This document shows, one piece after another, positions 4,017 through 15,009 of a DNA stretch of 38,613 nucleotides (its first letter is position 1; every line of letters starts with the position of its first letter). Below the pieces are notes generated by a model, which worked only from the letters and a program-made list of their open reading frames with translations, made no database searches and was not told where the DNA came from. This stretch comes from a virus: positions 1 to 38,613 of IMG/VR virus record IMGVR_UViG_3300032316_000623; one strand, given 5' to 3'. The translations under genes were made by a program, and so were the position numbers.

Positions 4017-4149
4017 TTGCTACCCCTGTTCGCCATGTTTCATGTTTCATACGCCTAATCATTTCAGCTGTCACTAGGCAAATCTCAGCTTCGACATAAT
4101 TTGCAATCGTGTCGAATGCGTCATGCCAGCCTTTTTCATACTCAGTCAT
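3964..4149 (-). CDS. Small hypothetical protein (61 aa)
   Basis: The product begins MTEYEKGWHDAFDTIANYVEAE, a pattern common in short phage proteins of unknown role. Its ATG overlaps the end of the upstream gene by eight bases, and its 3' end overlaps the secreted repeat protein gene by 53 bases in another frame. An AGAGGCGG stretch precedes the start. The first 35 residues look protein-like, while the Ser/Gly-rich C-terminus lies in the overlap. Confidence 0.55.
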   Translation of the reverse strand: MTEYEKGWHDAFDTIANYVEAEICLVTAEMIRRMKHETWRTGVANEKDSGSIHIDGNASTS

Positions 4150-4348
4150 GTCTACCGCCTCTAATTGCGGCTGCTATATCTGACCTGCGTTCCTTCAGCC
4201 GTTCCTTCTGAACGATGTGATGTGCATCAACTGGCCATTGTTCGACAATCTGAGCAGCCTTCTCACGCTCGTCTTTTCGCACAGCCTCAATCAACTGCGA
4301 AATCTCTGGCCCGAATAACCACCAATCACCTTGATTGATTTTGGTCAT
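4142..4348 (-). CDS. Small hypothetical protein (68 aa)
   Basis: The start used is the ATG at 4348, which sits in an ATGA overlap with the stop of the preceding gene and has GGAGG five bases upstream. A GTG at 4360 in the same frame is less likely. The product (MTKINQGDWWLFGPEISQLIEAVRKDEREKAAQIVEQW in part) is charged and helical, and has no recognised domain. It is part of the coupled leftward string of accessory genes. Confidence 0.65.
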   Translation of the reverse strand: MTKINQGDWWLFGPEISQLIEAVRKDEREKAAQIVEQWPVDAHHIVQKERLKERRSDIAAAIRGGRHD

Positions 4349-7378: not shown

Positions 7379-7764
7379 CACTCTCTCTCCCTCGTTGAAA
7401 TCACGTAAACTTGCATCGTCTCGCCAGCGCCGCGCCAAACCTCTAGCTTCTGCATGAGGCGGTCGTTTTCGATGACGTTGTGGGATTGCAGGAGGTCACT
7501 CACGCACTTAACGGAGTTGTCTAAATCCATCCTGCAGTTAACGGGTAGGGAAATACGGAGGCCGTAAGCGCCTTCTACAAAGCCTGGGTTTTGCTCTTCT
7601 AAAATCTTGCCAGCGCCGACAATCCAATCACGATATTTCTCTGATTTGATATTGATGGCGTGATTAGAACCTTTGCGCACAATGGCGCGGTAAAGCGCAT
7701 TCACCGAAATTGGTGGCGGTAATTCTAATACGACTGATTGGGTTGGCTTCCGGCTTTCGCTCAT
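7378..7764 (-). CDS. rusA: RusA-type Holliday junction resolvase
   Basis: The 128-aa length is typical of RusA. The fold signature begins with LPPPISVNALYR (residues 15-26). The catalytic acidic cluster is visible as CRMDLDNSVKCVSDLLQ (D80, D82, D90) followed by VIENDRL with D101. RusA dimers cut four-way junctions symmetrically, here probably to resolve recombination intermediates made by the exonuclease/annealing system or during replication before packaging. Coupled to both neighbours by overlapping start and stop codons. Confidence 0.92.
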   Translation of the reverse strand: MSESRKPTQSVVLELPPPISVNALYRAIVRKGSNHAINIKSEKYRDWIVGAGKILEEQNPGFVEGAYGLRISLPVNCRMDLDNSVKCVSDLLQSHNVIENDRLMQKLEVWRGAGETMQVYVISTRERE

Positions 7765-8480
7765 AGGTCAACGCCTACAAGGCTCTGGACGCCGATATTT
7801 TCTAAGAAGCGTGATCTAGCCTGAGACGGCGCAGCATCCCAGGCCTTATGAAGAGCATCTAAATATCTGATGTATGGATCAGTTTGCTTCTTGGCCTTCT
7901 TATGCTCGGCAATCAGCTTCTTAGCCGTTCCCTTACGGTCATGCGACCCAATAATCTGATGCTGAATTTCATCGTCTAGGTCAGATACCTCTGCCGCGAC
8001 TGATACAGGGATGTCACCACGCTCAACAGCGTCAGCTAGTTCTGGGATACCTTCATTGAGTATTTTACGAGCGCTAGCTACTGATCTAGGTGAGACATTT
8101 AAACGACCAGCCGCTAAGGATTGAGGCACAGGCGAAACTTGCAAATTTGCAACTTTCGAATGATTGCCCTGTTTCATGTTGGCTAATTTGCCTGCAACCA
8201 TAGCGCGCTGGCTTTCATTTAAATGCCGCCGAGCTAGATTTTTAGAAATTACATATTCAAGAGCTTTTTCGTCATCGCCTTCAAAATTGATAAATCTAGG
8301 CTCAATGTTTAAAATGCTGCAGGCTGTATAACGGTTGCGACCGTCTAAAATCTTGCCATCGTATAAAGTTATTGCATCAAGTAAACCATGCCTACGAATA
8401 TCATTAACTAAAGCGCCAGTATCTTGGTCAGAAGCAACTGGAAAAATCGTGCAATATTCGTGAAGATTATATTCTTGCAT
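7761..8480 (-). CDS. ParB/Srx-fold nuclease-like protein (239 aa)
   Basis: The N-terminal part has the ParB-like motif ILDGRNRYTAC (DGRNR box), followed by a KNLARRHLNESQRAMVAGKLA segment and an HTH-like region around NVSPRSVASARKIL. This is the layout of ParB N-terminal plus HTH domains in phage and plasmid regulators. The start used is the ATG at 8480, with GAGGG seven bases upstream; a TTG at 8495 is unlikely because it lies in the T-tract of a terminator. Possible roles are a DNA-binding regulator, plasmid-like partition or a nicking nuclease. The true activity cannot be told from sequence. Confidence 0.8.
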   Translation of the reverse strand: MQEYNLHEYCTIFPVASDQDTGALVNDIRRHGLLDAITLYDGKILDGRNRYTACSILNIEPRFINFEGDDEKALEYVISKNLARRHLNESQRAMVAGKLANMKQGNHSKVANLQVSPVPQSLAAGRLNVSPRSVASARKILNEGIPELADAVERGDIPVSVAAEVSDLDDEIQHQIIGSHDRKGTAKKLIAEHKKAKKQTDPYIRYLDALHKAWDAAPSQARSRFLENIGVQSLVGVDL

Positions 8481-8489
8481 GGCACCCTC

Positions 8490-8526
8490 AAACAAAAAGA
8501 AACCCGGCGCAATTTCTCACGCCGGG
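8490..8526 (-). terminator. Intrinsic terminator between the two ParB-fold genes
   Basis: On the - strand, CCCGGCG and CGCCGGG form a perfect 7-bp stem around a 10-nt loop, followed by TTTCTTTTTGTTT. The loop holds TGAGAAAT, as in the terminator at 3687-3655. It separates the 309-aa gene from the 239-aa gene. Confidence 0.85.
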
Positions 8527-8533
8527 CATGTCA

Positions 8534-9463
8534 TTAGTTAATTTCTGGGAAATCTTCTGCTTCGCTTGCTTTGTCGAGCATTGCTAGCGTGCAGTTTTTG
8601 CCTTTACGGAAAGCATTCCATGCAATAACAACCATTTTATTGCGGAATGTTTCTTTAATTCTGCCGCCGCTGTTGTTCATAACCGCTGCAATACGGTTCA
8701 TAACTGGCTTAGCAGCACCTTTATTTTGAATAAACAACCGCGCAAAAGCATCAGCATCTTTCTGGCTCTTTAATGAGAAAAGATACAATAAAGCCGCCAT
8801 TGAGCCAGATGGTATTGATCTGCCGCGTAGTTTTGTTTCCTTCTCAATAACGATTGCTTTTTCTACGCATTCATCAAACGTTTTGCGGTTGATTTTACTG
8901 TCATCACGGTAGATGCCAATAGCATCATCATTAGTAATTTGAACGCCACGGTCTAAAGGGTCTGTGGATAAAATATAAAGCCATCTAATAGCTTTAGCGG
9001 CTACCCGAGCATTGGGCACGTGCTCAATGTGGAACGCATCCATATTCGTGCGCTTTCTACCAATATCAATCATGGTGAAAGCACCGGCATCAATACCAAA
9101 CACAACAAAAGTGCGAATTGGTATGCCAGATATTTTACAAGCTAAAAGGCGATGCTGGCCATCCAAGAGATAGCCTTGCTTGGAAAATACTATTGTTGCG
9201 CCTGTAACCGGCCAACGATCTTTCTGCAGAGCATCAATATATTCTGATATTTTCTTTGAGCTTTTCGGACGATTAAGCCCGTTAATAGTATCGACGATCC
9301 AGCCAGCAAGCTCTGGATATATTGTGTGGATATATGCAGCAGGTGGTGGATTTTTTATTAAGCTCTCAAGAACGCTCTTCTGTTGCTCAAGCGTCATGTT
9401 GTTAGTAAAATAGCGTTGCTGATTTCTACTCTCAGCTACTGCAAGTTGAGCTACCTTAGACAT
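8534..9463 (-). CDS. ParB-like domain protein, DGQHR type (309 aa)
   Basis: The core motif is GYLLDGQHRLLACKISG, preceded by W-x-x-TGATIVFS and followed by FVVFGIDAGAFTMIDIGRKRT. This set of motifs is typical of large phage ParB-nuclease-fold proteins of unknown function. The start is the ATG at 9463 behind an AGGA site; a TTG at 9478 is less likely. It is the first gene after the terminator that follows the cro-like gene, so it is an early leftward gene. It differs from its 239-aa neighbour outside the DGxxR core, so they are probably not recent duplicates. Confidence 0.8.
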   Translation of the reverse strand: MSKVAQLAVAESRNQQRYFTNNMTLEQQKSVLESLIKNPPPAAYIHTIYPELAGWIVDTINGLNRPKSSKKISEYIDALQKDRWPVTGATIVFSKQGYLLDGQHRLLACKISGIPIRTFVVFGIDAGAFTMIDIGRKRTNMDAFHIEHVPNARVAAKAIRWLYILSTDPLDRGVQITNDDAIGIYRDDSKINRKTFDECVEKAIVIEKETKLRGRSIPSGSMAALLYLFSLKSQKDADAFARLFIQNKGAAKPVMNRIAAVMNNSGGRIKETFRNKMVVIAWNAFRKGKNCTLAMLDKASEAEDFPEIN

Positions 9464-9481
9464 TTTACGTCCTAACAATGT

Positions 9482-9595: not shown

Positions 9596-9841
9596 TCATT
9601 CGGCTGTTTCCAACCGGCGTTCTGATTTCTTGCGATGAAATTTCCACAAATCGAGGTCAGCAGAGAGTGCTTTGCTCAGCAGTTCTCGGGAAATCGTTGT
9701 GAAGGTATGTGCTGGTAGACGGTTGTTAACCCGCCAAACACTGACGGCTGCATGGCTAACGTCTAGAAGTGACGCAGCAGCTTTAGTGCCGCCAAGGGCA
9801 TCAATCACATCTGATACGGATGATAGTTTCGAACTAGGCAT
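9596..9841 (-). CDS. Cro-like small HTH regulator (81 aa)
   Basis: The HTH is clear: VIDALGGTKAAASLLDVSHAAVSVWRVNNRLP at residues about 12-43. This is the Cro/YdaS-like arrangement, with recognition helix around HAAVSVWR. It is the first gene of the leftward unit, transcribed from a promoter whose spacer contains an operator, and it is followed by a terminator. By position it corresponds to Cro of lambdoid phages. It probably binds the dyads between it and the divergent repressor gene. Confidence 0.85.
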   Translation of the reverse strand: MPSSKLSSVSDVIDALGGTKAAASLLDVSHAAVSVWRVNNRLPAHTFTTISRELLSKALSADLDLWKFHRKKSERRLETAE

Positions 9842-9847
9842 TTTCCG

Positions 9848-9876
9848 AAGCTATCTAAAATTTTTCGAATGGTCAA
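9848..9876 (-). promoter_or_regulatory. Leftward early promoter (pR-like) with internal operator
   Basis: On the - strand a -35 box TTGACC (9876-9871) is separated by 17 bases from TAGCTT (9853-9848). The operator copy at 9853-9869 fills the spacer. The cro-like ATG is 7 bases beyond the -10. The -10 match is modest, so the assignment rests partly on symmetry with the rightward promoter at 10547-10574. Confidence 0.6.
9853..9869. promoter_or_regulatory. Operator site 1
   Basis: ATCTAAAATTTTTCGAA is one of four copies of an imperfect dyad whose half-site is TC(T/G)AAAA. It lies in the spacer of the leftward promoter, where bound repressor would block RNA polymerase. Confidence 0.75.
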
Positions 9877-9881
9877 TAACT

Positions 9882-9898
9882 ATCTAAATATTTTCGAA
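9882..9898. promoter_or_regulatory. Operator site 2
   Basis: ATCTAAATATTTTCGAA has the same orientation as site 1 and starts 29 bases from it. It sits just upstream of the leftward -35 box, suiting cooperative binding on one face of the helix. Confidence 0.75.
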
Positions 9899-9952
9899 CA
9901 TTTGGGAATAAAAAGGTTTCGGGTGTTCAAAATTATTTTGTTGGTAGTTTCT

Positions 9953-9971
9953 GGTTAATACTTTATTAACC
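9953..9971. promoter_or_regulatory. Perfect 19-bp dyad upstream of the repressor gene
   Basis: GGTTAATACTTTATTAACC is an 8-bp inverted repeat around CTT. It ends 23 bases before the repressor ATG and differs from the four main operators. It may be the binding site of the other small HTH protein or of a host factor at the repressor promoter. Confidence 0.55.
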
Positions 9972-9994
9972 TTTTCCATAGGCGGTGTAAGTAT

Positions 9995-10264
9995 ATGAGT
10001 AGTGACCCACGGGTTGGGGCGGTCGGCAAGCGTCTAGCCTTGCTCAGAGCAGTTCTTGGTATTGAAAACCAAGCAGAGATGGCTAAGCGGCTTAAGATTG
10101 ACCCCAAACGCTACCATGTTTGGGAGGCCGGTAAGGGCCTTATACCTGTCCATCAAGCTATTGAGCTTCGTCGGCTCACTGGCGCGACACTAGATTATAT
10201 ATACTTAGGTGAAATGGGTGCCTTATCTACAAAATTATCTCAGCAATTAACGTCTGAAGAATAA
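9995..10264 (+). CDS. XRE-family repressor candidate (CI-like, 89 aa)
   Basis: The HTH runs from GKRLALLRAVLGIENQAEMAKRLKIDPKRYHVWEAGKGLIP (about residues 11-51), followed by a short helical tail ending LTSEE. It is divergent from the cro-like gene and lies between the two operator pairs, where lambda places cI. No C-terminal LexA/S24 peptidase domain exists, so classical RecA-driven self-cleavage is not possible. Lysogeny control would need another inducer route. Alternatively the roles of the two small HTH proteins could be swapped. Confidence 0.85.
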   Translation: MSSDPRVGAVGKRLALLRAVLGIENQAEMAKRLKIDPKRYHVWEAGKGLIPVHQAIELRRLTGATLDYIYLGEMGALSTKLSQQLTSEE

Positions 10265-10432
10265 TCAAATCAAGGGGATATCACCCCCCCCCCCCCCCGC
10301 AAAATCACCGAGGTAAAGCCACTGCTCAATCAGTTCACCAATGTATTGGTGTAGTTTTCTTGCGTCTTCAAAATCTTCTGGAAGCTGTTGAGCTATTTGC
10401 AGCGCCATAAATTTCAATTCCTGCTCCGTCAT
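10265..10432 (-). CDS. Small helical protein with a G-tract-coded Gly run (55 aa)
   Basis: The frame starts MTEQELKFMALQIAQQLPED and continues as a charged amphipathic helix up to EQWLYLGD. This style is common in short proteins beside phage repressor genes. The C-terminus is a Gly stretch coded by the G15 run (C15 on the + strand), then DIPLI and a stop immediately after the repressor stop codon, in convergent orientation. A GGGGGCG stretch precedes the ATG. A change of one base in the G-run would alter the C-terminus. The function is unknown. Confidence 0.6.
   Translation of the reverse strand: MTEQELKFMALQIAQQLPEDFEDARKLHQYIGELIEQWLYLGDFAGGGGGDIPLI
10284..10298. repeat. C15 homopolymer tract
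   Basis: Fifteen consecutive C on the + strand lie in the 3' part of the small leftward gene 10432-10265. Such tracts are slippage-prone in replication and error-prone in sequencing, so the exact length is uncertain. Confidence 0.9.
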
Positions 10433-10523
10433 TATCGCCCCCGTCCCTACACTTTGCCTGTAATCGTTCTACCTTCGTTCAGATGGCGAAACAGGTCAAT
10501 AGACAACGGTAAAAATTATTTCG
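10433..10523. other. Short non-coding stretch before the rightward promoter
   Basis: I see no gene, hairpin or repeat here. It should carry any promoter for the small leftward gene starting at 10432, but I could not pick convincing -35/-10 boxes. Confidence 0.5.
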
Positions 10524-10539
10524 TCGAATATTTTTAGAT
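10524..10539. promoter_or_regulatory. Operator site 3
   Basis: TCGAATATTTTTAGAT is a copy of the operator dyad in the opposite orientation to sites 1 and 2. It starts 30 bases before site 4 and lies just upstream of the rightward -35 box. Confidence 0.75.
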
Positions 10540-10546
10540 TATATAC

Positions 10547-10574
10547 TTGAACATCGAAAATTTTTAGATATACT
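10547..10574 (+). promoter_or_regulatory. Rightward early promoter (pL-like) with internal operator
   Basis: The -35 box TTGAAC (10547-10552) and the -10 box TATACT (10569-10574) are 16 bases apart. The spacer is occupied by operator site 4. It drives the recombination/integration operon beginning at 10601. Both hexamers are close to the sigma70 consensus. Confidence 0.8.
10554..10569. promoter_or_regulatory. Operator site 4
   Basis: TCGAAAATTTTTAGAT is the best dyad of the four: TC(G)AAAA and its complement TTTT(A)GA pair around a 2-base centre. It fills the spacer of the rightward promoter. Confidence 0.8.
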
Positions 10575-10600
10575 TCACTGCATCAAAGCAGGAGGTAGTC

Positions 10601-10699
10601 ATGTCAGATATGCAGATTGCTTGCGCATTATTCGCAGCACCAACCCTTATAGTCGGCACTGTTTTCGCCATTGGCTCATACGTTTTAGGGAGCCACTGA
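10601..10699 (+). CDS. Single-pass membrane micropeptide (32 aa)
   Basis: A strong AGGAGGT site lies five bases before the ATG. The product is almost entirely one hydrophobic helix (ACALFAAPTLIVGTVFAIGSYVL). Its stop overlaps the next start (TGATG). It is the first gene expressed from the rightward early promoter; the function is unknown. The strong ribosome site and the coupling make it a credible gene despite its size. Confidence 0.7.
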   Translation: MSDMQIACALFAAPTLIVGTVFAIGSYVLGSH

Positions 10700-11041: not shown

Positions 11042-11224
11042 ATGTATAAGATTTTTAACAATGGCATTTACATAGGCAATGCACAAAGAGAGACCTATGG
11101 AAACCTTTGGGTCGCCTTTTCACTTGCTGGTGTTTTTAAGCACAGTTTGAAAAATAAAGGCGCGGCTAAACGCTGGCTAATTGAACAATATCAAAAATCA
11201 ATTTTGTCTCAGGAGGCCGCATGA
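11042..11224 (+). CDS. Small early protein (60 aa)
   Basis: The product starts MYKIFNNGIYIGNAQRETYG and has a basic helical C-terminus (NKGAAKRWLIEQYQKS). Its stop overlaps the exonuclease start (ATGA), and the AGGAGG ribosome site for the exonuclease lies inside its last codons. No family is recognised. Confidence 0.65.
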   Translation: MYKIFNNGIYIGNAQRETYGNLWVAFSLAGVFKHSLKNKGAAKRWLIEQYQKSILSQEAA

Positions 11225-12012
11225 GCCTCACCGAGAAACAGAAGGCTTTCCGTAAGCAAGGCATAGGCGGCTCAGACGCAAACATTATCATGGGCGGCGA
11301 TGCTGAGCGAATTATTCGTCTTTGGAAAGAGAAGCGCGGCGAGATTGAGCCGGAAGATTTAAGCCGCGTGCTGCCGGTTCGCATGGGCAGCTTTACTGAA
11401 GAATTTAACATCACCTGGTTTGAAGAAGAAACCGGCAAGGTTGTCACACGTCAAGGTGAGCAAATCATCAGCGGCACTGAGCATTTTATGCTCTGCACAC
11501 TTGATGGCGAAACAACGTGGGAAAGAGGCTTGGCAGTATTCGAAGCCAAGCATGTATCAGCGTTTCAGACAGAGGAAGCCATACAGGAAAGATACTTTCC
11601 TCAAGTCCAGCACTGCATGCGTGTCTGCGGCCACCAGAAGGCTTATTTGAGCGTATTCTTCGGCACGATGAAATGGAAGCTATTCGAGATAGACGCTGAC
11701 CCAATTTACCAAGGCCAAATGATAGCCGCCGAGCGTAATTTCTGGGAATGCGTGCAGAATGGAACGCCGCCGGTAGCTGTCGAAATCAAAGCGCCAGTAG
11801 AGGCTATTCGTAAGGTTGATATGACCGGCCACAACAGCTGGGCAGATGCTGCCGGAGACTGGCACATGCATTACGGCCCCGCCAAAGCATTTGAGGCTGC
11901 AACTAAGCGCATTAAAGAACTTGTTGAGCCAGATGTTCAAGAAGCATTTGGCCACGGCATTAAAGCGTCTCGGTCTAAGAGCGGCTCAATAACAATTCGC
12001 AAGGAAAAGTGA
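11221..12012 (+). CDS. YqaJ-like viral exonuclease (recombinase)
   Basis: The 263-aa protein has the YqaJ/lambda-exonuclease fold signature: an N-terminal GIGGSDA (residues 14-20), a catalytic Asp in CTLDGET (D95) and the E-x-K motif in FEAKH (E108, K110). It degrades one strand of duplex DNA to expose single strands for the annealing protein encoded next. Strong AGGAGG site, ATGA coupling upstream and TGATG coupling downstream. The pair forms a Red/RecET-like recombination system. Confidence 0.92.
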   Translation: MSLTEKQKAFRKQGIGGSDANIIMGGDAERIIRLWKEKRGEIEPEDLSRVLPVRMGSFTEEFNITWFEEETGKVVTRQGEQIISGTEHFMLCTLDGETTWERGLAVFEAKHVSAFQTEEAIQERYFPQVQHCMRVCGHQKAYLSVFFGTMKWKLFEIDADPIYQGQMIAAERNFWECVQNGTPPVAVEIKAPVEAIRKVDMTGHNSWADAAGDWHMHYGPAKAFEAATKRIKELVEPDVQEAFGHGIKASRSKSGSITIRKEK

Positions 12013-12641
12013 TGAGAACATCAGAAGCGATTAATGAAATATCTTTGGATTTATCTAAAGCTCAGGGTGTTTTGGCTAATCCAATTAAGGACGGCAACAA
12101 CCCACACTTTAGGTCTAAGTATGCAACGCTGGATACGGGGCTAAACATCGTCCGTGAGTGCATGTCGAAACACAACATAAGTGTTGTCCAAGCTACTCGG
12201 GTTGAGGGCAATGTCCTTATGTTGGATACCCGCTTAGCTCATAAATCCGGCCAGTGGATTGAGGCTGAATATCCAGTTTGCGCATTCCCAGCCAAGCAAC
12301 AAGAGATGGGTTCAGCACTGACCTACAGCCGACGATACAGCTTGTTTAGTCTAGTCGGCATTGCTGGCGAAGAAGACGACGACGGCAACGCAGCAGTCAC
12401 CGCCACGCAAGCACCAAAGCGCGAAAAGCCATCAGAATTATCTGCTGAGCAATCTTCCGCAATATTGGAAGAATTACTCGCTTCATTAAAGCAATGCGTG
12501 TCTTTCACAGCATTAGAAGAATGGGGTGAGGCTAACAGGGGTAAGACCGCCAATCTTATAAAGGCTCACAAAGTGAGAATTGGCGAAGAATATTACAAGC
12601 TAGAAACATCAATCAAACAAGTAAGGAAATCTAATGGCTGA
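12012..12641 (+). CDS. erf: ERF-superfamily single-strand annealing protein
   Basis: The start chosen is the ATG at 12012 overlapping the exonuclease stop; a GTG lies three bases before it. The ERF signature is the segment NPHFRSKYATLDTGLNIVRE, followed by GSALTYSRRYSLFSLVGIAGEEDDDGN, a hallmark end of the ERF core. The C-terminal 70 residues are a variable charged tail. It anneals complementary strands produced by the upstream exonuclease. The two genes are adjacent and coupled, as expected for partners. Confidence 0.93.
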   Translation: MRTSEAINEISLDLSKAQGVLANPIKDGNNPHFRSKYATLDTGLNIVRECMSKHNISVVQATRVEGNVLMLDTRLAHKSGQWIEAEYPVCAFPAKQQEMGSALTYSRRYSLFSLVGIAGEEDDDGNAAVTATQAPKREKPSELSAEQSSAILEELLASLKQCVSFTALEEWGEANRGKTANLIKAHKVRIGEEYYKLETSIKQVRKSNG

Positions 12642-12873
12642 GTTCGATAAGCGCGGGACATTCACCCTTAACAAGAACGACCGCAAGACTGAGGATTGGC
12701 ACGCTGATTGGCGCGGCACCTTAATAGATGAAGATGGGAATGAGTTTTACCTAGACGCGAAACTGCGTCAGGGCAGCAATGGTGAATTTTTATCGGGAAA
12801 AGTCAAGCGCAAAGGCGACATGACGCCGCGCAAGCCAGCTGCATCACAAATACACGATAGCGACCCTTTTTAA
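12634..12873 (+). CDS. Small protein with SSB-like C-terminal tip
   Basis: The 79-aa product has a compact beta-rich body (GTFTLNKNDRKTEDWHADW, then GTLIDEDGNEFYLDAKLR and GEFLSGKVKRKG), a Pro/Ala linker and the terminus HDSDPF. That terminus resembles the acidic DDDIPF tip by which bacterial SSB recruits partner proteins. It follows the exonuclease and ERF genes with an 8-base overlap and ends at a terminator. I infer a small ssDNA-binding or SSB-mimicking partner of the recombination system. The family is known to me only as small phage proteins with such tails. Confidence 0.75.
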   Translation: MAEFDKRGTFTLNKNDRKTEDWHADWRGTLIDEDGNEFYLDAKLRQGSNGEFLSGKVKRKGDMTPRKPAASQIHDSDPF

Positions 12874-13775: not shown

Positions 13776-14146
13776 TGACCGAACGTATCAAAGCAACTCA
13801 AGCAGCTGGTGTGCTTGGCGTCTCTAAGAGGCTTGTAACTCTTATGGCTTCTAGGGGGGATTTGCCTGGGGCGGCTAAAATTGGCAGTCTCTGGACGTTC
13901 GACAAAAATAAGTTGCAGGACTATGTCACACAGAAAGAAAACGAATGTCTAAAAATCAAGACAAAAATCTCGTTTGCAGAAACGGGCAATATTACCTCAG
14001 AGCCTATATTAAAGGCCAACTCATCCAGAGAACGCTACATACAAGCGATGTCAAAGTTGCGAGGGCTGAGCGAGACAGGCTCATCAAAGAAGCGGAGGAT
14101 TGGGCCTGGCGCGGAAATCGTAAAGTTACGTGGCTCGATGCAGTAG
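13775..14146 (+). CDS. xis: Excisionase-like HTH protein overlapping the integrase gene
   Basis: Residues 5-52 form an excisionase-family winged HTH (ATQAAGVLGVSKRLVTLMAS, then GAAKIGSLWTFDKNKLQDYV). Its ATG overlaps the HNH stop (TAATG). The frame runs on for about 65 more residues inside the integrase gene, a 202-base overlap, and these residues look like by-product sequence rather than a conserved domain. Xis proteins bend attachment-site DNA and direct integrase towards excision. The position directly before int supports the call. Confidence 0.75.
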   Translation: MTERIKATQAAGVLGVSKRLVTLMASRGDLPGAAKIGSLWTFDKNKLQDYVTQKENECLKIKTKISFAETGNITSEPILKANSSRERYIQAMSKLRGLSETGSSKKRRIGPGAEIVKLRGSMQ

Positions 14147-15009
14147 CTGAATGGGTTGAGCATGAGGGCAAAGATTTATCGCCTGAGACTGCTAAGAGAT
14201 ACTCTGTATCACTAAAACAGGTAGAGCCGTATTTTGCTGATTTAAATATTGCAGCAATCAATGGAAAAATCATAGGCGAGTATGCCAAGGCCAGGCGCAA
14301 GACAGGCGTATCTGGTGCAACCATACGCCGAGACTTAACCGCAATCTCTAAGATTATGGATTATGCCATCTCAGAGGATTGGCGTGAGGATAACCCTACT
14401 TTAAGTCGCCGCCGTCTTATCAAAGAACGCCGAGACCCGATTACGCTGCCTCAGACCCTCGAGGTTGAGTTGATGATTGCATCAGCCTCTAAAGAGTTTG
14501 GCCAGCTGATTAGAGCCGCCTGGCTTACCGGCTGCCGCCAGAATGAGTTAGTTACGGCTCGTTGGCGTGATTATGACCCAGAGCGGAAAACGCTGCGGGT
14601 TGTTGGCAAGGGGAATAAGCAGAGGGTGATATCTCTGAGGCCGATACCATCAAAGGATGCTGCGGCGTTTTTTGCCGCCCTGCCTAGAGCATTTGGTGCT
14701 GATTTGATTTTCGCTAAGCCAGACAAAACACCATTTGCTCAAGCTGCCTCAGACTTCACTCACATACGCAGAGCCGTTAGGGCTAGGATGGGAAAAGAAG
14801 GCCGTCAGTTCGATGGTTTCCGCTTCCATGACCTCAGACATTTATTTGCAGTCGAAGCGCTTAAGGGTGGAATGAATGTCTACGACCTTCAACAACACTT
14901 GGGTCATTCGTCTGTGAAGGTAACTGAGATTTATCTTTCTCACATAACGCCAGAGGAAAAAGCTAGAGCAAAAGGCGGTGCTGAGTATATGCAGATGTAT
15001 ATAGTTTGA
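13945..15009 (+). CDS. int: Tyrosine integrase
   Basis: The 354-aa recombinase has an N-terminal arm-type DNA-binding region (NLVCRNGQYYLRAYIKGQ, about 8-25), a SAM-like core-binding domain (about 62-155) and the catalytic domain. The active-site set is visible: R198 (TGCRQNELV), K222 (VVGKGNKQR), H295 and R298 (FHDLRH), H321 (LGHSS) and the nucleophile Y330 (EIYLSH). It inserts the phage at a tRNA-Ser gene, judging from the attP directly downstream. No strong ribosome site precedes the ATG, so translation may be coupled to the overlapping xis frame. Confidence 0.95.
   Translation: MSKNQDKNLVCRNGQYYLRAYIKGQLIQRTLHTSDVKVARAERDRLIKEAEDWAWRGNRKVTWLDAVAEWVEHEGKDLSPETAKRYSVSLKQVEPYFADLNIAAINGKIIGEYAKARRKTGVSGATIRRDLTAISKIMDYAISEDWREDNPTLSRRRLIKERRDPITLPQTLEVELMIASASKEFGQLIRAAWLTGCRQNELVTARWRDYDPERKTLRVVGKGNKQRVISLRPIPSKDAAAFFAALPRAFGADLIFAKPDKTPFAQAASDFTHIRRAVRARMGKEGRQFDGFRFHDLRHLFAVEALKGGMNVYDLQQHLGHSSVKVTEIYLSHITPEEKARAKGGAEYMQMYIV

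Follow-up and report, generated by a model that had tools for sequence, protein, structure and literature searches.

The immunity region of a 38.6-kb virus contig (IMGVR_UViG_3300032316_000623, positions 1 to 38,613; the whole of this stretch is referred to as the window) probably contains a mirror image of the phage lambda switch that is thrown by an SOS-induced antirepressor, encoded within the immunity region itself by a small gene under a LexA box. The geometry of this region is well supported; the binding of CI and Cro to the operator dyads and of LexA to its box, as well as the inactivation of CI by the small protein, are predictions from sequence. According to the proposed mechanism, an 89-aa CI-like repressor and an 81-aa Cro-like protein would share operators of the TCGAAAAT(A/T)TTTCGA type. 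CI dimers on the sites within the promoter spacers would close both the leftward promoter (cro and the following genes) and the rightward promoter (recombination genes and integrase), the second site of each pair would reinforce repression, and a weak third left site beside the cI promoter would allow for autoregulation of CI. As CI lacks a self-cleaving domain, the switch would have to be thrown by another route: upon DNA damage, host LexA would leave its box at 10466–10480, and the resulting 55-aa two-helix protein would bind and disable CI, with the small-gene transcript also running head-on into cI. A repressor too short for self-cleavage needs other means of sensing DNA damage, and a small LexA-boxed gene would be a direct and testable answer.

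Operators, promoters and genes of the immunity region

Left operator 1 (9854–9868, TCTAAAATTTTTCGA; 0 mismatches to the consensus TCKAAANNNTTTMGA) fills the spacer of the leftward promoter and is kept across group A (the window and the related loci L004, L005, and L031, see below), with left operator 2 (9883–9897, TCTAAATATTTTCGA) located 29 bp upstream. On the opposite side, right operator 1 (10554–10568, TCGAAAATTTTTAGA) fills the spacer of the rightward promoter and right operator 2 (10524–10538, TCGAATATTTTTAGA; 1 mismatch) lies 30 bp upstream of it. The dyads of the window are asymmetric; those of L005 and L031 are near-perfect palindromes, some of them perfect (e. g., TCGAAAATTTTTCGA). 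When up to 1 mismatch to TCKAAANNNTTTMGA is allowed, 4 matches are found in 38.6 kb, all within the immunity region, as compared to a mean of 0.38 (maximum 2) in dinucleotide shuffles of the whole window, and when only the local 759 bp were shuffled, 4 matches were reached in 0 of 1000 cases. The four dyads of a preliminary description of this DNA are thus real, in place and well beyond chance, with no excess of copies outside regulatory regions of the window, and its further elements were recovered as well, namely outward promoters with the proximal dyad in each spacer, a second site about 30 bp upstream in each pair, and an 89-aa helix-turn-helix (HTH) gene between the pairs. Two of its statements hold in part. 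The organization in pairs rather than triplets applies to the right side throughout, yet on the left a third site, weak but conserved, is present in group A; likewise, two operator sets do flank cI, but their outer-to-outer distance is 700 bp instead of about 670 bp.

This third left site (9927–9941, TCAAAATTATTTTGT) is degenerate, with mismatches at 3 of 12 positions in the window, 2 in L031, and about 4 in L005. Its center lies at about −42 from the inferred cI start, it abuts the inferred cI promoter, and its TC.AAA and TTTGT columns are invariant in the alignment of the four group A loci. It probably is a further, weak operator. When 2.9 million viral contigs were searched for the operator-pair pattern, 4 stretches were returned, two being family members and two decoys. 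In the latter (L015:2036–2078 and L018:364–406), which were rejected as family members, the operator word occurs in tandem copies within simple-repeat DNA of large contigs and is not regulatory.

The leftward early promoter (9847–9875, minus strand) comprises a −35 element TTGACC, a 17-bp spacer, and a −10 element TAGCTT, and the rightward early promoter (10548–10575, plus strand) the elements TTGAAC and TATACT with a spacer of 16 bp. By themselves, their scores are unremarkable (8/12 and 9/12 consensus matches, reached by 11 % and 1.5 %, respectively, of random 43-bp segments). They are credible because of their conservation and not because of these scores: TTGAC and the −10 element of the leftward promoter are kept in L004, L005, and L031, and TATACTTC in the rightward promoter region is invariant in the four group A loci. 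The leftward operon opens with the cro-like gene (9596–9841, minus strand, 81 aa), whose product matches the Pfam families P22_Cro (3.7e-6) and YdaS (1.8e-5), both below the gathering score. Since the leftward −10 element ends only 6 nt before the cro ATG in the window and 5–9 nt before it in 13 of the 14 loci, the cro mRNA is probably leaderless; in L028, the script picked another register for the left promoter, and TTGCAG-17-TACTCT fits by eye. Downstream of cro, genes for a phrog_5931 protein with no function assigned by its family (8534–9478) and a ParB-like protein (phrog_4715; 7761–8495) follow, both on the minus strand.

Between the operator pairs lies the cI-like gene (9995–10264, plus strand), which encodes an 89-aa protein consisting of an HTH domain only (Pfam HTH_19 and HTH_3, the former just below the gathering score), and a profile search of the PDB with CI matched HTH regulators only. 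Judging by its length and Pfam content, CI has no peptidase, self-cleavage or C-terminal oligomerization domain. The CI proteins of the relatives are similarly short (88–108 aa), and we infer that CI is a non-cleavable repressor. A cI promoter (TTGGTA, or TTGATA in the relatives, 17-bp spacer, TATTAA) was inferred at 9941–9969 on the plus strand from the alignment of the four group A loci.

The rightward operon starts with a 32-aa hydrophobic peptide (MSDMQIACALFAAPTLIVGTVFAIGSYVLGSH; 10601–10699, plus strand) and, according to Pfam and PHROGs, includes a YqaJ/RecE-type exonuclease (11221–12012), an ERF annealase (12009–12641), an SSB-like protein (12634–12873), and a tyrosine integrase (13945–15009). 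Peptides resembling the 32-aa peptide also open the rightward operon in L004, L005, L031, L028, and L029. The terminase of the window shares 70 % identity with its counterpart in Sinorhizobium phage phiM5, which makes an alphaproteobacterial host likely, and the immunity region most likely belongs to a temperate tailed phage of Alphaproteobacteria. As for phiM5 itself, it has a different repressor with no LexA box beside it, the annotations of MW202496 and MW202711 contain no switch comparable to that of the window, and the nearest phage records gave no DNA match to the immunity region and CI matches of only 30–41 %.

Relatives with unrelated operators at the same positions

Searches of viral contigs with CI yielded a total of 14 loci including the window, among them some near-identical pairs, which fall into six groups by operator sequence. 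Group A keeps all four sites, the operators being retained while the flanking bases vary. The operator words of groups B to F are unrelated to these (TAACAAnnnnnTTGTTA, ATCCACnnnnnGTGGAT, ATTMAGnnnnnCTKAAT, ATTACACnnnnnGTGTAAT, and TTACAGnnnnnCTGTAA). Since these group patterns were picked by eye from the loci, mismatch counts are biased in their favor, but the fixed positions of the sites are independent of this choice. In all 14 loci, the proximal left dyad lies 10–13 bp from the cro ATG and the right pair is spaced by 29–31 bp, and no extra copies of the respective group consensus (up to 1 mismatch) occur elsewhere in each locus. The left side is more variable, with a spacing of 29–31 bp in groups A and D and of 44–48 bp in groups B, C, and one member of group F; for group E and two F members, the search detected no second site on the left. 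The outer operator distance ranges from 639 to 953 bp. The two-promoter CI/Cro switch with operators inside the promoter spacers, as proposed in the preliminary description, is strongly supported by the retention of its geometry in 14 loci of six groups. Moreover, the recognition-helix segment of CI tracks the operator group, reading D(P/H)KRYHVWE throughout group A and being different in every other group. Six operator groups with a fixed geometry represent a natural series for studying coordinated changes in the specificity of repressors and their operators.

Beyond viral contigs, a genome scan with a first CI profile gave no match and one with a second profile no more than 4 loci, among which L038 (Sulfitobacter) proved informative. 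L039–L041 were dismissed as family loci because they do not share the layout, and L012–L014 because they have only a short Cro-like stretch in common.

The convergent small gene and its LexA box

Inside the operator-flanked interval and convergent with cI lies a small gene (10265–10432, minus strand) that encodes a putative antirepressor of 55 aa and that the preliminary description overlooked. It was found in all 14 loci with the core motif A...(I/L)AxQLPEDxxxA (QLPED-type). For this core, pN/pS values of 0.15–0.29 were obtained for the window versus L005 and L031, with synonymous sites near saturation, which identifies the small gene as a real protein gene. AlphaFold predicts two helices (residues 3–14 and 21–41; pLDDT of about 91 for residues 1–30) from a shallow alignment of 12 sequences. 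The window protein has no family in Pfam, PHROGs or NCBIfam and no convincing relative in the PDB, and no similarity to any described antirepressor was detected in the family libraries. A search of 385 alphaproteobacterial genomes with a profile of the small protein gave 0 matches, as did tblastn against phages and plasmids. The coding regions of the small gene and cI only abut in group A; in groups B, D, and E, the small gene overlaps the 3′ end of cI in antisense, and slightly so in C and F. The two genes also travel together: CI and the core of the small protein are identical between the window and L004, but their Cro proteins are only 73 % identical, while L005 and L031 share 97 % identity in Cro but 71 % in CI and 62 % in the small protein. 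CI and the small gene are thus inherited as a unit, for which their adjacency (i. e., linkage alone) may be a sufficient explanation. The small gene has a long poly-C run (10283–10300) at its 3′ end, whose length is different in L004 and L005, which alters the C-terminal glycine tail of the protein; this run could reflect assembly noise or slippage or belong to a convergent terminator.

The LexA box (GTTCTACCTTCGTTC, GTTCN7GTTC; 10466–10480) is located 34 bp upstream of the ATG of the small gene and corresponds to the Caulobacter LexA motif (PMC12700426). It covers the −10 region of the inferred small-gene promoter, whose −35 element TTGACC (10493–10498, minus strand) is invariant as GGTCAA in four loci and whose −10 element (AAGGTA) is weak in the window. 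Although this is the sole copy in the window, a single GTTCN7GTTC in 38.6 kb is not rare by chance (shuffle mean of 0.73), and the weight of the box derives from its place and conservation rather than its rarity. It occurs at the matching place in 7 loci, i. e., the window, L004, L005, and L031 (group A), L028 and L029 (B), and L006 (C), and further copies are absent from these loci except for one in L006. In groups D, E, and F, the small gene is present and the box is absent, so SOS control is not family-wide; E. coli-type LexA boxes were not found near the small gene either. A two-helix gene beside cI under a LexA-type box may also serve as a handle to search for such switches in other phages.

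Group E comprises Bradyrhizobium phage ppBdUSDA122-1 (L026/L034) and L032, which carry the small gene as a fusion with a DUF4118 membrane domain (L026:2685–3317, L034:4176–4796, L032:4176–4796), without a LexA box. The USDA 122 prophage is spontaneously produced in culture (PMC10127595), and this family member is hence alive. Its induction may respond to an input other than SOS, and the fusion in group E is possibly a membrane-sensing antirepressor. In addition, the place of the small gene may be taken by other proteins. In Sulfitobacter L038, an unrelated convergent ORF (about 4129–4341) lies beside a short CI and is preceded by GAACAATAGGAGAAC at a distance of about 17 bp from its ATG, and two further alphaproteobacterial genomes (L043 and L047) have yet another convergent ORF of unrelated sequence (about 1740–1990), also beside a short CI, which is adjoined at its probable start by GAACAAAACAGGAAC or GAACAAACCATGAAC. 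The boxes at all three loci are of the GAACN7GAAC type, and it is possible that these ORFs are analogues in the slot of the small gene. One slot with one control box and different proteins favors a common job, the obvious one being to disable a non-cleavable repressor. A more far-reaching and tentative idea, which we consider somewhat unlikely in its entirety, is that of a swappable antirepressor slot, in which one small CI-inactivating fold receives either a LexA/SOS input (groups A–C) or a DUF4118 membrane signal with no LexA box (L026/L034 and L032), can be replaced by unrelated small proteins, and acts on a CI level that is perhaps also set by host CtrA. If so, prophage induction in these Bradyrhizobium phages would answer a membrane signal.

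Alternative readings and known systems

Several other readings share parts of this evidence. The operator switch could be as described, with the convergent SOS-induced transcription itself lowering CI by antisense RNA or polymerase collision and the small protein doing something else. The convergent orientation and the antisense overlap in groups B, D, and E, and to a slight extent C and F, are in line with this proposal, but purifying selection on the small protein, the retention of its motif across groups with differing operators and flanks, and the merely abutting coding regions in group A render it quite unlikely. The small gene might alternatively be a LexA-controlled accessory, for example, a toxin, host-takeover or SOS-modulating factor with no action on CI, so that induction would proceed otherwise or only spontaneously. 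A very small protein of two helices that belongs to no annotated family would fit such a role, and LexA-controlled operons of Gifsy phages also include dinI-like genes (PMC3121763). However, the invariant position beside cI, the inheritance with CI and not Cro, and the unrelated ORFs that fill the same slot under the same box elsewhere all make an accessory function very unlikely. Least probable of all appears a reduced lambda oL/oR arrangement of two pairs, along the lines of the preliminary description, with CI-mediated looping over about 700 bp, in which the small gene is incidental. Two site sets do flank cI in every relative, but CI lacks a C-terminal domain of the kind that lambda CI uses to form tetramers and octamers, the outer distance differs widely among the relatives, a weak third left site is present, and neither the small gene nor its conserved LexA box would be accounted for.

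A further regulatory layer would not compete with the SOS-induced antirepressor but add to it. A CtrA-type box (TTAA-N7-TTAA; 9955–9969), the sole copy in 38.6 kb, overlaps the inferred cI −10 element, recurs in L004, L005, and L031 at −37 to −40 from the cI ATG, and is also found near cI in L006, so that the host cell-cycle regulator might additionally set CI levels. Its first TTAA half is conserved despite lying in the promoter spacer, and CtrA sites have been reported in other alphaproteobacterial phages (PMC9437464, also the source of the consensus). Against this, the second half doubles as the inferred −10 element (TATTAA), the group D element overlaps an operator-like palindrome, and groups E and F have none; a working CtrA site is therefore regarded as rather unlikely.

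As in lambda, cro and cI are opposed with operators of a shared type between them that overlap the promoters, a second operator set lies beyond cI over the early promoter of recombination genes, and the rightward operon encodes exo, ERF, SSB, and integrase, making the map of the window a mirror image of that of lambda. Left and right operators are also known from the C repressor of Rhizobium phage 16-3, an alphaproteobacterial temperate phage. Unlike lambda with its three and three sites, the window has two right sites and two plus one weak left site, with a spacing of 29–31 bp on the right and, in group A, on the left; its 89-aa CI has no cleavage domain, the leaderless mRNA is apparently that of cro rather than that of cI from pRM, and a LexA-boxed gene lies between the operator sets.

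For Gifsy phages, 186, and N15, it is established that non-cleavable repressors are countered by small antirepressors under SOS control (PMC3121763). The combination of a non-cleavable repressor with a LexA-boxed small gene in Gifsy-1/2/3 (GfoR/GfoA, GtgR/GftA), 186 (Tum), and N15 (AntC) resembles that proposed here; however, the Gifsy antirepressor gene is located outside the immunity region (PMC3121763), whereas here it lies inside and abuts cI. No sequence similarity between these antirepressors and the window protein was found in the family libraries, but since the known members share little sequence, this is not defining. The family libraries and the literature searched, the latter with few subscription journals, yielded neither this placement between flanking operators nor the small-protein family. 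Small proteins that inactivate CI are also encoded by VP882-type smORF modules, which follow a common logic with little sequence in common (PMC10432266) and which, unlike the SOS route proposed for the window, do not depend on SOS but on a phage transcription factor that drives them. SPC32H Rep/Ant, as cited in PMC9437464, is a further case of a small protein inactivating CI. With respect to site numbers, N15 and phiKO2 are likewise uneven, with three sites at oR and two at oL (PMC4997575); their immB (CB repressor) regions differ from the window in belonging to plasmid prophages, in the control of repA by oL, in a separate antirepressor locus, and in different operators.
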